57,569 nucleotides of DNA. Origin: a bacterium. Lineage in GTDB: Bacteria; SZUA-79; Acidulodesulfobacterales; Acidulodesulfobacteraceae. Positions within the stretch are counted from its first letter, which is position 1; each line of letters opens with the position of its first letter. The notes beneath the pieces are model-generated. The model searched no databases, was not told the origin of the DNA, and worked only from the letters and a program-made list of their open reading frames with translations. The stretch lies in assembly GCA_021798015.1 (NCBI GenBank), contig JAJZYP010000002.1:1-57569 (forward strand). The letters run 5' to 3'. The position numbers and the translations under genes were made by a program. This document shows positions 1 to 5,158 of the stretch, in pieces.

Positions 1-483
1 TTGGCAGTCCAAGGAGTTTTTGATCCCGGTTACTGGTATATCGCGACCCAGGAAGCGCAGGCATTAGCATGGGTATTTGAAAAATTAGGATGGAACTTAA
101 TGAATAATATGACATTCGGCTTTGTAAACGGAATTCCCAACCCTGTGCTTAATCCCCCTCTTTTGATGTCTTTCGGAACGATTATTGGCGCTGCGATAAT
201 GGCACTTTCCTTTAGGGAATTTAGCTGGAAAGTTCCAAATCTTGAATCGATTATTTTTGCGGTATTCGGTGGTTGGTTTATGGGTATAGGCGTGAGGATT
301 GGATTAGGATGCAATATCGGGTCATTCTTTGTTCCTGTTGCCAATGGGGATCCAAGCGGCTGGGTTTATTTTATCGGTATGATAATAGGAAGTTATTTTG
401 CGGTTAAAATAATCGGTAAATGGATTAATTATAAGAGCACTAAAGCGTTAAAAGAATTGGACAATATTGAAGGTTTTATGTAA
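1..483 (+). CDS. YeeE/YedE-family sulfur-compound transporter, C-terminal part (partial)
   Basis: This is the C-terminal 160 residues of a membrane protein cut by the left edge of the window. The TTG at base 1 is probably an internal Leu codon, because family members run to roughly 350-400 residues. Three or so hydrophobic segments are visible, with the family signature GLGCNIGSFF near residue 104 and the membrane helix GWVYFIGMIIGSYFAVKI after it. In the E. coli member TsuA such GxGC sites relay thiosulfate across the inner membrane; the substrate here is not determined. The TusA, DsrE and rhodanese genes directly downstream support a role in importing a sulfur compound and handing sulfane sulfur to cytoplasmic carriers. 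Confidence 0.85.
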   Translation: MAVQGVFDPGYWYIATQEAQALAWVFEKLGWNLMNNMTFGFVNGIPNPVLNPPLLMSFGTIIGAAIMALSFREFSWKVPNLESIIFAVFGGWFMGIGVRIGLGCNIGSFFVPVANGDPSGWVYFIGMIIGSYFAVKIIGKWINYKSTKALKELDNIEGFM

Positions 484-525
484 TATGGTAATATATAATG
501 TAATAAATCGTGGAAAATTAAAATT

Positions 526-783
526 ATGAGTAATATTTTATGGAAACAATCAGAAAATACCTATGTACTTGATTGCAGAAAGTTAAGCGAGAAGATGACT
601 CAGGTATATGTTAAAAAAGTGTTGGATAAGATTAAAACCGGATCTCATTTAAATGTGGTAACAAAGGGACCATCATGCGACGAGTGTTTTGGTGTTATGG
701 AATTGTGCGAGGTTGAAAAATGTGAATTGGTGAATGTTACAAACGAAAAAGGAATATATACTTATGAAGTTCTCAAAAACTAA
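526..783 (+). CDS. TusA-like protein lacking the CPxP motif, Cys-rich
   Basis: This 85-residue protein aligns end to end with the true TusA encoded next to it (shared LD at 15-16, Q26, YxKKVLxK around 28-35). The catalytic Cys-Pro-x-Pro is replaced: the equivalent of Cys22-Pro23-Val24-Pro25 reads Glu-Lys-Met-Thr. It instead carries Cys17 and a C-x2-C-x6-C-x4-C cluster (C51, C54, C61, C66) absent from the neighbour. It therefore cannot use the usual persulfide chemistry at Cys22. Metal binding, or a persulfide on another Cys, is possible (inference). It lies between a YeeE transporter gene and tusA in the same orientation, so it likely belongs to the same operon. Confidence 0.7.
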   Translation: MSNILWKQSENTYVLDCRKLSEKMTQVYVKKVLDKIKTGSHLNVVTKGPSCDECFGVMELCEVEKCELVNVTNEKGIYTYEVLKN

Positions 784-827
784 ATTTAAATTAAAATTAT
801 AAAATTATAAGGAGGTTGTAAATTCTC

Positions 828-1076
828 ATGGCGGTAAAATTTGAAAAAGTAAGTGATAACAACTACATGTTGGATGTTACGGGTTATGTTTGCCCCGTTC
901 CTCAAATGTATGCAAAAAAAGTTTTAGAAAAGTTAAACAAAGGCGACCATGTGAAGGTTATGGTCAATAATCCTTCTTCTCATGAAAGCATATCTCAATT
1001 CTGCACAAATGAAGACCACCCAATTGTAAATACAACTTTAGAAAAGGGCGTTTATACGATTGAGATTGTAAAGTAA
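828..1076 (+). CDS. tusA: TusA-family sulfur carrier protein
   Basis: This is an 82-residue protein with the complete TusA signature Cys22-Pro-Val-Pro after a short N-terminal strand, followed by the amphipathic helix MYAKKVLEKLNKGD. TusA proteins carry sulfur as a persulfide on this Cys and exchange it with rhodaneses and DsrE-type proteins in the cytoplasm. A strong ribosome binding site (AAGGAGG, about 810-816) precedes the ATG. A second Cys lies at QFCTNEDH near residue 64. It sits in an operon-like run with a YeeE transporter upstream and a DsrE-like gene downstream, as in many sulfur-oxidising and sulfate-reducing bacteria. Confidence 0.9.
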   Translation: MAVKFEKVSDNNYMLDVTGYVCPVPQMYAKKVLEKLNKGDHVKVMVNNPSSHESISQFCTNEDHPIVNTTLEKGVYTIEIVK

Positions 1077-1131
1077 AAATACTTTTGCATTGTATTACCG
1101 ATATATTATGATATTTAAAGAGGAGATTTGT

Positions 1132-1440
1132 ATGCACATTGGTGTTGTGGTAACCGACGATAAATATATAAATGATGCCATAGGCTTATTAAAAACGGCA
1201 TCTTCGAAAGGTTTTGAAACCGAATGTTTTTTGACGGACAGAGGTATTTTGATGTTGAACTTTAATAATTTTACTGATTTTGTAGATAAGATTAATTGCA
1301 AAGTTTCAATGTGTGAGTATTCTATCGACAGATTAGGGGAAACTAAAAATATTGAAAAGTTTAAGGATAAGATGATAATAGGCGGTCAGTATCAGGATGC
1401 CGAATTAGTAAGCCGTTCCGATAAAGTGATTGTATTTTAA
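1132..1440 (+). CDS. DsrE-like small sulfur-relay protein
   Basis: This 102-residue protein begins MHIGVVVTDDKYINDAIGLLKTA and has the alternating strand-helix pattern of the DsrE/TusD fold. I place the start at the ATG at 1132, because a good ribosome binding site (AAGAGGAGA, about 1118-1126) precedes it; an in-frame TTG at 1090 is less likely. Family members bind persulfide on a conserved Cys. Candidates here are the Cys in TECFLTDRG, which lies where many DsrE proteins place their active site, and Cys residues near KINCKVSMCEY. The assignment to DsrE rests on fold-level resemblance and the tusA neighbour, so it is tentative. Confidence 0.6.
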   Translation: MHIGVVVTDDKYINDAIGLLKTASSKGFETECFLTDRGILMLNFNNFTDFVDKINCKVSMCEYSIDRLGETKNIEKFKDKMIIGGQYQDAELVSRSDKVIVF

Positions 1441-1555
1441 AAATGATTTACTTTACATAATTTGCATTATTTGATATTACTAAATAAATTAAGTAAATAT
1501 AATAAATAATGTGAATAATTATTTTCTAATGCTGGATTAAAGATAAGGATAAATT

Positions 1556-1825
1556 ATGGACGATAAAAAGCCAAAACGAATATTAGTAATATCACAGTTT
1601 AAGAAAGACGAAGGGTTGAGAATGGCCAACGGTTTAACGTTGCTGGATGATAAGGTAAGGGTTGTCGTTATCGGCGATTTAGAAAAAAACGAAAATGTGG
1701 ATATTCAGCTTGAAGCCATTGAATTTGGTGAAACTCCATTGCAATATATAGACCCGAATAAAGATTCTGATTTAAATAATTTAACCGATGAAATCCAAAA
1801 TGCGGATGTGGTGTATATCTTATGA
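1556..1825 (+). CDS. Small conserved protein of unknown function in sulfur cluster
   Basis: This is an 89-residue soluble protein without Cys. It opens with a beta strand KRILVISQ, then a helix LRMANGLTLLDD and a second strand VRVVVIGD, a Rossmann-like order resembling DsrE/TusD proteins but with no sulfur-binding Cys. The stop codon overlaps the start of the next gene by 4 bases (ATGA), which indicates translational coupling. I do not recognise a characterised family. Its place between a DsrE-like gene and an exported rhodanese suggests a role in sulfur relay or its regulation, which is inference from context only. Confidence 0.6.
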   Translation: MDDKKPKRILVISQFKKDEGLRMANGLTLLDDKVRVVVIGDLEKNENVDIQLEAIEFGETPLQYIDPNKDSDLNNLTDEIQNADVVYIL

Positions 1826-2022
1826 ATAAAAAAATTCTATTTTTATATGTTGACAGTTCGGAAATCGGAAAAGACAGGATTATGCATAAAGTTGCCGAAA
1901 ATTTGAAAAAAAGAGGTTTGGAAGTTAAAGAGATTATAAAAAATAATAATGAAAATATGATTTTAGATGAAATTTTGTGGAGTGATGTTCCAATTGTCGT
2001 TAAAGGTTCTAAAGATTTTTAA
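1822..2022 (+). CDS. Small hypothetical protein coupled to preceding gene
   Basis: This is a 66-residue protein starting MNKKILFLYVDSSEIGKD, with a strand-helix-strand pattern and a short C terminus ending in KGSKDF. Its ATG overlaps the stop of the preceding gene by 4 bases, so the two are probably translated together. No Cys, membrane segment or signal peptide is present. I cannot assign a function. It could be the second half of a split DsrE-like fold completed by the preceding gene product, but that is speculation. Confidence 0.5.
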   Translation: MNKKILFLYVDSSEIGKDRIMHKVAENLKKRGLEVKEIIKNNNENMILDEILWSDVPIVVKGSKDF

Positions 2023-2110
2023 ATAAACCTTAAAAGTGAATCATTACTTTATTTTGAATTAATTTAGAATTAAACCTTAAATGTTAATTTTAATTTGGGA
2101 GAAAAGGGCT

Positions 2111-3055
2111 ATGAAAAAATTAAAAATTTTACTGTTTACCTTTCTGGTAATGTTTTTTGGAATTAGTAGTGTTTATGCCTTAAATGTTCCAAAGGATCAT
2201 CTGGTTTCACCACATTGGGTTTACAGCCATATGCATAATAAGAATCTGGTTATAGTCGATGTGAGGGTTCCTAAAGCATATGCGTCAGGGCATATTCCCG
2301 GCTCTGTCAATATACCGTTCCCTTCAATAATGCAAAATTATATCGGGATTAAGATTCTCGGTAATATTGCAAGTCCGGAGAAAATGACAGGCATATACAG
2401 ACGCGCAGGGATAACCAATCACAGCATAATTGTCTTTACGGGAGGCGGTATATCTAAATTTCCGCTTGGCTATAGTAACGAAACCAGAGCGCTATGGACG
2501 GGGTGGTTTTACGGATTAACAAAAATGGCAATATTAAACGGCGGATTAGCGAGATGGATGAAGGATAAATTGCCTGTTACAACTAAACCGTCACATCCTG
2601 TGGCAAGCAACTTTACAATCATGAAGATGAGATTACGCTCACGTGCCACATATCAAAGGATATGGAAATATCTATATATTCATAATGTTGTGCTAATCGA
2701 TGCAAGACCCGTGGCATGGTTTAAAGGACTTGATCATGACCCGAGGTTTATAAAACACGGACATATACCTGGGGCGATTAATGTCCCGTTTACAGAATTT
2801 GAAAAAATGTCTAAAGCAGGTTATTACGAATTTGTAACCCCTGCTGAAGCAAGAGCAATATTGGTAAAAGCCGGCGTAAGTTTTAGAAAACCGATAATTA
2901 CACAATGCAATACAGGCTACTGGGCTAGCGCTGATTGGTTTGTAATTAAGTTCTTACTTCATAAAAACAACGTTGCCGATTATAACGGTTCATGGGTGCA
3001 ATATTCCAGAATACCAAATGCTCCGATAGTCGATTTACATATACATAAATATTAA
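2111..3055 (+). CDS. Exported tandem-rhodanese sulfurtransferase
   Basis: This 314-residue protein begins with a cleavable signal peptide (MKKLKILLFTFLVMFFGISS, cleavage likely after VYA). Two rhodanese domains follow, each with the DxR and HIPGxxNxPF signatures (VDVRVPKAYASGHIPGS and IDARPVAW...HGHIPGAINVPF). Only the second domain has a catalytic Cys (TQCNTGYWAS); the first has FTGGG at that position, as expected for thiosulfate/mercaptopyruvate sulfurtransferases. It should act outside the cytoplasmic membrane on thiosulfate or a similar donor, feeding the YeeE transporter upstream (inference). I chose ATG 2111, with GGGAGAAAAGG ahead of it and a signal peptide right after, over an in-frame ATG at 2081. 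Confidence 0.88.
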   Translation: MKKLKILLFTFLVMFFGISSVYALNVPKDHLVSPHWVYSHMHNKNLVIVDVRVPKAYASGHIPGSVNIPFPSIMQNYIGIKILGNIASPEKMTGIYRRAGITNHSIIVFTGGGISKFPLGYSNETRALWTGWFYGLTKMAILNGGLARWMKDKLPVTTKPSHPVASNFTIMKMRLRSRATYQRIWKYLYIHNVVLIDARPVAWFKGLDHDPRFIKHGHIPGAINVPFTEFEKMSKAGYYEFVTPAEARAILVKAGVSFRKPIITQCNTGYWASADWFVIKFLLHKNNVADYNGSWVQYSRIPNAPIVDLHIHKY

Positions 3056-3163: not shown

Positions 3164-3757
3164 ATGAAAAAAATTTTTTTACCAGTGTTTATGTTTCTAA
3201 TGATTTTTTTAAGCTTTAATATTGTCAAAACAGATGCAAAGATGCCTCTTAACGCATGCGCTATGAATAAGACAAAAAAACTAAAGAGTATGAAGAAGTT
3301 TTTTATGCTGCATTCATTAGGCTTTGGATTTAATTTTTATATATTTCATCCGGGTCCTTACTGGGTTTTTCAGAATGCAAAAGTTTTGAAATTAACCCCG
3401 GCACAGGCTTTGCAAGAGAAAATGCTTACAAAAGAGATGATGAATGATACAAAAAAGGGTATTATAACACTTAAAAGGGCAATAATAAGATATAGAACTT
3501 ATGCCATGCATAAAAATCCAAGTATAAAAAAATTAATAAGTTATGTAAAAGCCGTCGGAGAAGCGGAAACCTATCTTGGATATGAAATGATACCGTTTCA
3601 TATTAAAGGTTACCGTGTACTTAACGCATCTCAAAGAATAATGTATTTAAAGCTTACAAAAATTAAAGCGGCAAAGATGAGGGCAATGAGGCATCAATTT
3701 ATGCGAATGATGCATATGGTACACATGCGGATGATTCATAAAAAAATGATGCATTAA
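3164..3757 (+). CDS. Exported Spy/CpxP-like protein with Met/His-rich tail
   Basis: This 197-residue protein has a signal peptide (MKKIFLPVFMFLMIFLSFNI) and a predicted helical body. An LTPAQALQEKM segment near residue 85 resembles the LTxxQ repeats of the Spy/CpxP/ZraP periplasmic family. The last 30 residues contain 10 Met and 5 His in patterns such as MRMMHMVHMRMIHKKMMH. Such Met/His tails bind soft or borderline metals, for example Cu(I), Ag(I), Ni or Zn, in other proteins. Family members act as periplasmic chaperones or metal sensors. The family call is tentative because only one LTxxQ-like motif is seen. It is a single-gene unit between two hairpins. Confidence 0.55.
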   Translation: MKKIFLPVFMFLMIFLSFNIVKTDAKMPLNACAMNKTKKLKSMKKFFMLHSLGFGFNFYIFHPGPYWVFQNAKVLKLTPAQALQEKMLTKEMMNDTKKGIITLKRAIIRYRTYAMHKNPSIKKLISYVKAVGEAETYLGYEMIPFHIKGYRVLNASQRIMYLKLTKIKAAKMRAMRHQFMRMMHMVHMRMIHKKMMH

Positions 3758-3817: not shown

Positions 3818-5158
3818 TTAATATATTCTTTCCAGCCTTTTCCAAAGGAGATATTTACTATCCACATCTTCTTTTAAGGCTCTTAAAAAAATAATTTTTA
3901 TAATTTTTGGCAGATATTTAATTTTTAGTAATGCCTCGAAAAACCGCGTATAATGCGATTCCGGCTTAACGGTAATCCATGCCTTTATGTACTTGGAACC
4001 TTTAAGTAATGGATAATCATATATAAGTTTAGCAGTTTGAAATGGTTTTAAACGTGTATCAAAGTGTTGTTTTCTTAAATTTAAACTCACGCTCCAGCCT
4101 ATTATATATCGTTTAATTGATTTGTTGATGATATTTCCGCCGGATTTTTCCTGTGCAATGTTTAAAATGACCTTAGGTGTTGTATATGTTGGAAAGTCAT
4201 GCCCTACCCCGGAATTTGTCAAACTTAAAGTTGTGCTAACTTTGCCTGAATAAATCTTAATCTTTTTTAAATGAATAGTTATAGCTTTTAATACAAAATT
4301 TTTATTATAAATGCTTTTAAACGCCATCGAACCTTGCGGAGTATGGCATGTTTCGCACGAAATACCTTTAGTCGCATAAATGCTGTTTTTCCATTCATTA
4401 TAAGTATTTTCAAATAATTTTCCTTTAAGCCCTCTATCATCGGGAGAAAACTGATGACATTTAATACAAAAATAAGATTTCGTGAACGCTTTGGTTGGAA
4501 CAAAGCCTCCGTGAGCAATTTTACCCTGTTTCAGGTATTTTTTAATATTAGGACCAAATCTATGATAATACCTAACATGGCAGGCAGCGCAGCTAACGCT
4601 TAAGTCACCCTTGCCTATAGGTATTTTTAGCGCATTTAATGCTATAACCATTGCCTTTTTTTCTTTTGTGCCGTTTCGTAAAATATTTTTTTCCTTTTTA
4701 CTTAATCCTTTATATTTGTCGTGTTTTACATAATATTCCGCAAGCGGCGAATGACAGCTAAGACAGCTCATAACCCATGATTTCCAGTGTTTTGAAGTCA
4801 TTTTTTTCAATAAAAGTTGTCCCACCACGCCGGCGTCCATCGAATGAGCCATTCTTGATTTTTTCCATTCAGCATATTGCTTATAATGGCACACCATGCA
4901 AGAAGAAGGCGAAAGAGATTTTTGAAGTTTAGGCCAATTATAGGGGGGAATTCCTTCGTTAATCGGTGTTTCCCAGTATATATCTAAAAATTTATGTATA
5001 TTTTTATCTTTAGCAAGTTTTTTTAGATATAAATATTTTTTACTAACTTTTTTGTATTCAGTGTTGGTTTTTGCGCAGGCTGTTAAAAGGAAAATTGAAA
5101 TAAACAGCATTGAAATTGAAACTATTAGCCAGTATAATTTTTTTTCCTCACGTATCAT
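3818..5158 (-). CDS. Pentaheme c-type cytochrome lipoprotein
   Basis: This 446-residue protein has an N-terminal hydrophobic segment ending in a lipobox (LTAC, Cys28), so it is probably a lipid-anchored exported protein. Five heme-binding CxxCH motifs follow: CMVCH (about 87), CLSCH, CAACH, CIKCH and CETCH, all in the first 275 residues. The motif NSGVGHDFPT near residue 305, seen in other multiheme proteins, may supply a distal His ligand. The C-terminal third is heme-free. It should take part in electron transfer in the periplasm or at the outer membrane; its partner is not visible. It is preceded by a TetR-type gene with 10 bases between them, so the two are likely cotranscribed. Confidence 0.85.
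   Translation of the reverse strand: MIREEKKLYWLIVSISMLFISIFLLTACAKTNTEYKKVSKKYLYLKKLAKDKNIHKFLDIYWETPINEGIPPYNWPKLQKSLSPSSCMVCHYKQYAEWKKSRMAHSMDAGVVGQLLLKKMTSKHWKSWVMSCLSCHSPLAEYYVKHDKYKGLSKKEKNILRNGTKEKKAMVIALNALKIPIGKGDLSVSCAACHVRYYHRFGPNIKKYLKQGKIAHGGFVPTKAFTKSYFCIKCHQFSPDDRGLKGKLFENTYNEWKNSIYATKGISCETCHTPQGSMAFKSIYNKNFVLKAITIHLKKIKIYSGKVSTTLSLTNSGVGHDFPTYTTPKVILNIAQEKSGGNIINKSIKRYIIGWSVSLNLRKQHFDTRLKPFQTAKLIYDYPLLKGSKYIKAWITVKPESHYTRFFEALLKIKYLPKIIKIIFLRALKEDVDSKYLLWKRLERIY

Follow-up and report, generated by a model that had tools for sequence, protein, structure and literature searches.

A TusA paralog without the CPxP motif carries a conserved cysteine loop in a YTD-like operon of Acidulodesulfobacterales

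Introduction

Sulfur import and relay clusters of the YTD type are characterized by the gene order yeeE-tusA-dsrE (PMC12998232, PMC9751629). A study of 2026 assigned their dsrE and two small genes to DsrEFH type II, demonstrated sulfur transfer between TusA and Cys67 of DsrE with TusA acting as the sulfur donor, and argued against a specific role of YTD in disproportionation (PMC13293266). The thiosulfate transporter YeeE has a TusA-family partner, YeeD. The Cys of the CPxP motif in S. thermophila YeeD captures thiosulfate at the YeeE mouth, changing this Cys abolishes binding to YeeE, and Y43, E48 and R49 of the β2-α2 stretch contribute to that binding (PMC11073785). In E. coli YeeD, the CPxP Cys and a loop cysteine, C39, are both needed in vivo for YeeE-dependent thiosulfate uptake, and the authors suggested that the sulfur or sulfite group passes to a second Cys or to another molecule (PMC11073785). 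In sulfur oxidation as in disproportionation, it is still a question what accepts sulfur from YeeE-type transporters and how it then moves onward.

Here we describe a TusA paralog, Cys-TusA, encoded between a YeeE/YedE-like gene and a normal tusA. The DNA analysed, referred to as the window, is a stretch of 57,569 nucleotides (contig JAJZYP010000002.1, assembly GCA_021798015.1) from a member of the Acidulodesulfobacterales in phylum SZUA-79, the placeholder name of Ca. Acidulodesulfobacteriota. The bacteria that carry Cys-TusA are uncultured, acidophilic sulfur bacteria.

Results

The genes of the locus are listed in Table 1. Their order, YeeE/YedE-like, Cys-TusA, TusA, DsrE-like, two small proteins and rhodanese, is kept at two further loci (L008 and L009), where a small cytochrome is encoded upstream of the operon. 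The yedE-like, tusA and dsrE-like genes and the two small genes follow the YTD order at all three (window positions 1-2022, L008 and L009). The DsrE-like protein matched canonical DsrE at E 9e-6, and its Cys61, the sole invariant Cys in the alignment, lies under Cys67 of the homolog from genome G511. The first small protein gave a weak match to a cluster protein of G314, the one genome compared (E 2e-7), and for the second, comparison with the canonical cluster protein gave no match in sequence. Because this small-protein homology is weak or undetected, we call the operon YTD-like (DsrEFH type II-like), a putative sulfur import and relay cluster, rather than a proven member. The sequence-only reading had regarded as new a sulfur carrier turned metal-binding or sensor protein inside a TusA/DsrE/rhodanese operon; the operon itself is of a known kind, YTD or YeeE-TusA-DsrEFH type II-like. 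The neighbourhoods of the clusters in G176, G314, G511 and G747 each showed a single TusA.

Table 1. Positions of the genes and motifs of the operon in the window, and of TGA-bearing TusA-like proteins in other contigs
Feature	Position	Strand	Evidence and remarks
YeeE/YedE-like protein, gene cut by contig end	1..483	+	Pfam PF04143; full-length counterpart of 485 aa in L009
Cys-TusA, CPxP-less TusA-fold paralog	526..783	+	85 aa, ATG start; ORF, Pfam TusA, orthologs, dN/dS, AlphaFold2 model
Codons 22-25 (Glu-Lys-Met-Thr) at the Cys-Pro-x-Pro position of TusA	589..600	+	alignments
Rebuilt β2-α2 loop, codons 48-56 (G-P-S-C-D-E-C-F-G), holding C51 and C54	667..693	+	alignments, predicted models
TusA with CPVP, sister paralog of Cys-TusA	828..1076	+	Pfam 65.3 bits; tree 97/94; 44 bases downstream of Cys-TusA
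DsrE-like protein	1132..1440	+	Pfam DsrE 19.9 bits, under cut-off; Cys61 aligns with Cys67, the proposed active residue in DsrE type II-like homologs
Conserved small protein resembling DsrF in position and size	1556..1825	+	conserved in L008, L009
Conserved small protein resembling DsrH in position and size alone	1822..2022	+	conserved in L008, L009
Two-domain rhodanese, signal-like N-terminus	2081..3055	+	Pfam PF00581, two stretches
TGA-bearing TusA-like proteins (L072; L073-L078)	G000:C169:27576-27743; G001:C26, G002:C16, G003:C1:547926, G005:C7, G006:C31, G007:C66		

Two further genes follow the operon. Positions 3164-3757 encode a 197-aa protein that has a signal-like N-terminus and is enriched in Met, Lys and His toward the C-terminal end; it falls in no convincing family and has a counterpart beside the cluster in L009. 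Positions 3818-5158 of the minus strand encode a 446-aa lipoprotein-like multihaem cytochrome with several CxxCH motifs and counterparts in L008 and L009, that of L009 being split in two frames (ORFs 1706-2206 and 2197-3036).

Cys-TusA is a diverged member of the TusA family. Its score against the Pfam TusA profile (PF01206) was 28.9 bits, barely above the curated cut-off of 28.6, and its orthologs in G001 and G005 scored under the cut-off. PF01206 was the sole Pfam family matched at E up to 1, and the DUF2249 profile (PF10006) gave no match. Within the source genome, the neighbouring TusA (41% identical) was the one match found at E up to 1. Aligned with the adjoining TusA, Cys-TusA is similar in length and overall alignment (39-41% identity), with E22-K23-M24-T25 replacing C-P-V-P; the Cys-Pro-x-Pro persulfide site is missing from all three orthologs. 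The open reading frame, the Pfam match and the alignment, together with the TusA fold of the model described below, bear out the sequence-only reading of a TusA paralog that has lost its catalytic motif. Its further claim, a gain of cysteines, stood for C51, C54 and C66, the first two of which are accompanied by a two-residue insertion relative to TusA. The other two cysteines, C17 and C61, are inherited: C61 aligns with Cys59 of the neighbouring TusA, and C17 is also present, as L-D-C, in CPxP TusAs of G176, G511 and G747 (L088, L119, L121). Five Cys in 85 residues is a high content against the 0.9% Cys background in the longer ORFs of the window (binomial P ~0.001), and the three extra Cys by themselves are weakly unusual (P ~0.04).

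Conservation of the cysteines in orthologs is stronger evidence than their number alone. Orthologs at the same operon position were found in two genomes of the same phylum (G001:C25, 82% identity; G005:C9, 68%), and all five Cys as well as S21-E22-K23 are invariant across the three sequences, a set too small for ranking the Cys by covariation. The spacing is C-x2-C-x6-C-x4-C in two of the three and C-x2-C-x6-C-x5-C in the other. Nucleotide changes are mostly at third codon positions. By pairwise NG86, dN/dS is ~0.12 in the two computable pairs, dS being saturated in the third; a dS exceeding 1 in one pair leaves that ratio rough. A decaying duplicate heading for loss would account for the lost catalytic motif and for a Pfam score just above the cut-off, but the gene is intact in three genomes, all Cys are kept, dN/dS is low and third-position changes predominate, making decay very improbable. 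Given that the orthologs keep the cysteines and that dN/dS is low, the gene is functional, and Cys-TusA is almost certainly a neofunctionalised duplicate. The earlier view of a copy rebuilt rather than decaying is thereby upheld, and the homologs that it envisaged beside tusA exist in two genomes with all five Cys, the spacing between C61 and C66 being x5 in one of them. Its refuting condition, that homologs would lack the Cys, therefore did not hold.

In a tree of 31 TusA proteins, the three Cys copies grouped together (100/99) on a long stem branch (1.08) and were joined to the three neighbouring TusAs (97/94); both groups nest in a larger one that also includes the TusAs of G176 and G314 and has weak support. 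Since Cys-TusA is sister to the neighbouring TusA, it arose by tandem duplication of the operon TusA; this upstream copy lost CPxP, diverged fast and then came under purifying selection.

Among 30 genomes of the phylum, Cys-TusA occurs in three, and the subtype of the neighbouring TusA is limited to the same three. No further Cys-paralogs were found in 386 genomes spread over the domain or in 395 genomes of the phylum of the DsrD-bearing genome G051, presumably a sulfate-reducer phylum; for the phyla of G176 and G068, the searches covered 2 and 3 genomes. Genome contigs were scanned twice for the Cys-paralog, the first scan returning nothing and the second just the two known relatives, and a search of plasmids for Cys-TusA relatives found none. 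Two matches were rejected: one in G044, chance-like and located within an open frame of 451 aa among pyruvate dehydrogenase genes, and one in G289, an ordinary TusA with C-P-M-H. Cys-TusA is so far confined to one phylum, and the open-access literature that we searched yielded no description of a TusA that lacks CPxP and bears a Cys loop within an operon of the YeeE-TusA-DsrE kind.

The genomes of the phylum hold 4 to 11 TusA-family matches each (30 genomes). Divergent copies (L068, G000:C141:1284-1867; L069, G003:C4:174921-175519; L070, G002:C11:14828-15619; L071, G006:C60:53123) have S-C-C-M-P-P, S-C-C-A-G-P or C-S-S-C-C-L-G at the active site, and L068-L070 adjoin a standard or near-standard TusA. 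Remodelling of the active site of TusA copies is thus recurrent in the phylum. All seven genomes inspected encode TusA-like proteins in which an in-frame TGA lies within a C-TGA-G-P/T-P motif (Table 1), probably selenocysteine TusAs (C-U-G-P-P); 25 of the 30 genomes, including the source genome, have a tRNA-Sec gene that scores over the Rfam cut-off.

The AlphaFold2 model of Cys-TusA, built with 30 aligned TusA relatives, has the two-layer β-α-β-α-β-β TusA fold (pLDDT 84; neighbouring TusA by the same method, 90). Its best PDB match was E. coli TusA (3lvj_C, E 7.7e-4, TM 0.76), followed by the YeeE-YeeD complex 8k1r; a PDB profile search with the three orthologs alone returned nothing useful. 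Helix 2 spans residues 57-64 in the Cys-TusA model vs 49-61 in that of the neighbouring TusA, and residues 48-56 are modelled as a loop, so that the first half of helix 2 is predicted to be replaced by a loop bearing C51-x2-C54. From the topology of TusA, the sheet edge where the CPxP Cys normally sits is the expected place of C17, C51 and C54, while C61 would be within helix 2 and C66 would begin strand 3, at the end of helix 2 opposite to C51 and C54. The block of residues 51-60 has a mean pLDDT of ~71, the lowest in the model, as expected if a ligand orders the loop. A Zn or iron-sulfur site formed by C51-x2-C54, C61 and C66 (or C17) is almost as likely as the thiol relay considered below. 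Such a ligand would hold the rebuilt loop in place or sense metal or redox state, making Cys-TusA a structural or regulatory partner and not a sulfur carrier. With two conserved Cys after it, the C-x2-C-F-G motif resembles a zinc knuckle, and all these residues are kept in the three orthologs; for the four-Cys set, a metal site is as good a fit as a relay. Weighing against it, C61 and C17 also occur in CPxP TusAs and so did not originate for metal, the C61-C66 spacing varies between x4 and x5, and C66 would lie at the other end of helix 2 relative to C51 and C54.

Discussion

We favor a thiol relay, at a probability of about 0.4, in which an accessory cysteine protein is paired with a CPxP TusA at the transporter handover. 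Because C51 and C54 sit in the loop by which YeeD contacts YeeE, we propose that the two Cys roles of E. coli YeeD may be split between two proteins, CPxP on TusA and the loop thiols on Cys-TusA. Cys-TusA would then work with the neighbouring TusA where sulfur exits the YeeE/YedE transporter: TusA would take sulfur on its CPxP Cys, the CxxC thiols of Cys-TusA would accept or reductively resolve it, and sulfur would go on to the DsrEFH-like proteins. By alignment, C39 of E. coli YeeD falls at the G48 column of Cys-TusA, three residues from C51; this offset and the single TusA of the four clusters named above speak against the relay. A CPxP-less copy may also fail to dock on YeeE, since S. thermophila YeeD needs its CPxP Cys for binding.

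Loss of CPxP with retention of the TusA fold would also suit a pseudo-carrier, a protein of TusA shape but free of chemistry whose docking on YeeE, TusA or DsrEFH would regulate or scaffold the relay, its Cys being structural (disulfide or packing). CPxP-less TusA relatives such as DUF2249 make this conceivable, but it leaves the invariance of all five Cys at 68% identity unexplained, and a protein of the cytoplasm is unlikely to contain disulfides; we consider it improbable. The broader proposition, that tandem duplication within the operon created a functional class new to the TusA superfamily, in which the fold became a metal- or redox-binding Cys protein gating or resolving sulfur transfer between a YeeE-type transporter, TusA and DsrEFH, is possible but less likely than not.

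Whether through a thiol relay or otherwise, Cys-TusA probably has a new job in the passage of sulfur after its entry into the cell. A conserved copy that lacks the motif but has a Cys loop, next to a normal TusA, amounts to a natural experiment; it may tell two roles apart and provides testable mutants. It also extends the reuse of the TusA fold beyond CPxP chemistry, in a phylum with strongly multiplied TusA genes.

Compared with the TusA family, Cys-TusA shares length, fold and Cys61 (Cys59 of TusA), and differs by the absent Cys-Pro-x-Pro, the new C51, C54 and C66 and a helix 2 shortened by the Cys loop. Like YeeD/TsuB, the partner of the YeeE/TsuA thiosulfate transporter, it is encoded beside a YeeE-like transporter, and the required second Cys of E. 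coli YeeD is in the same β2-α2 loop as C51 and C54 (PMC11073785); in YeeD/TsuB, however, CPxP and loop Cys are on one protein, and here they are divided between TusA and Cys-TusA. The locus has the yedE-tusA-dsrE-two small genes order of YTD clusters and an invariant DsrE Cys that aligns with theirs, but an extra CPxP-less TusA lies between yedE and tusA, and its TusA, YedE and DsrE are of a divergent subtype. DUF2249 (PF10006), likewise a TusA-like domain, is an earlier example of a lost CPxP Cys; it differs in being a separate family with an E-P-P motif and no Cys cluster. One such protein is encoded on another contig of the source genome (L084, G000:C75:15200-15400), where an open frame of 182 aa includes two DUF2249/TusA-like stretches and has E-P-P in place of C-P-x-P.
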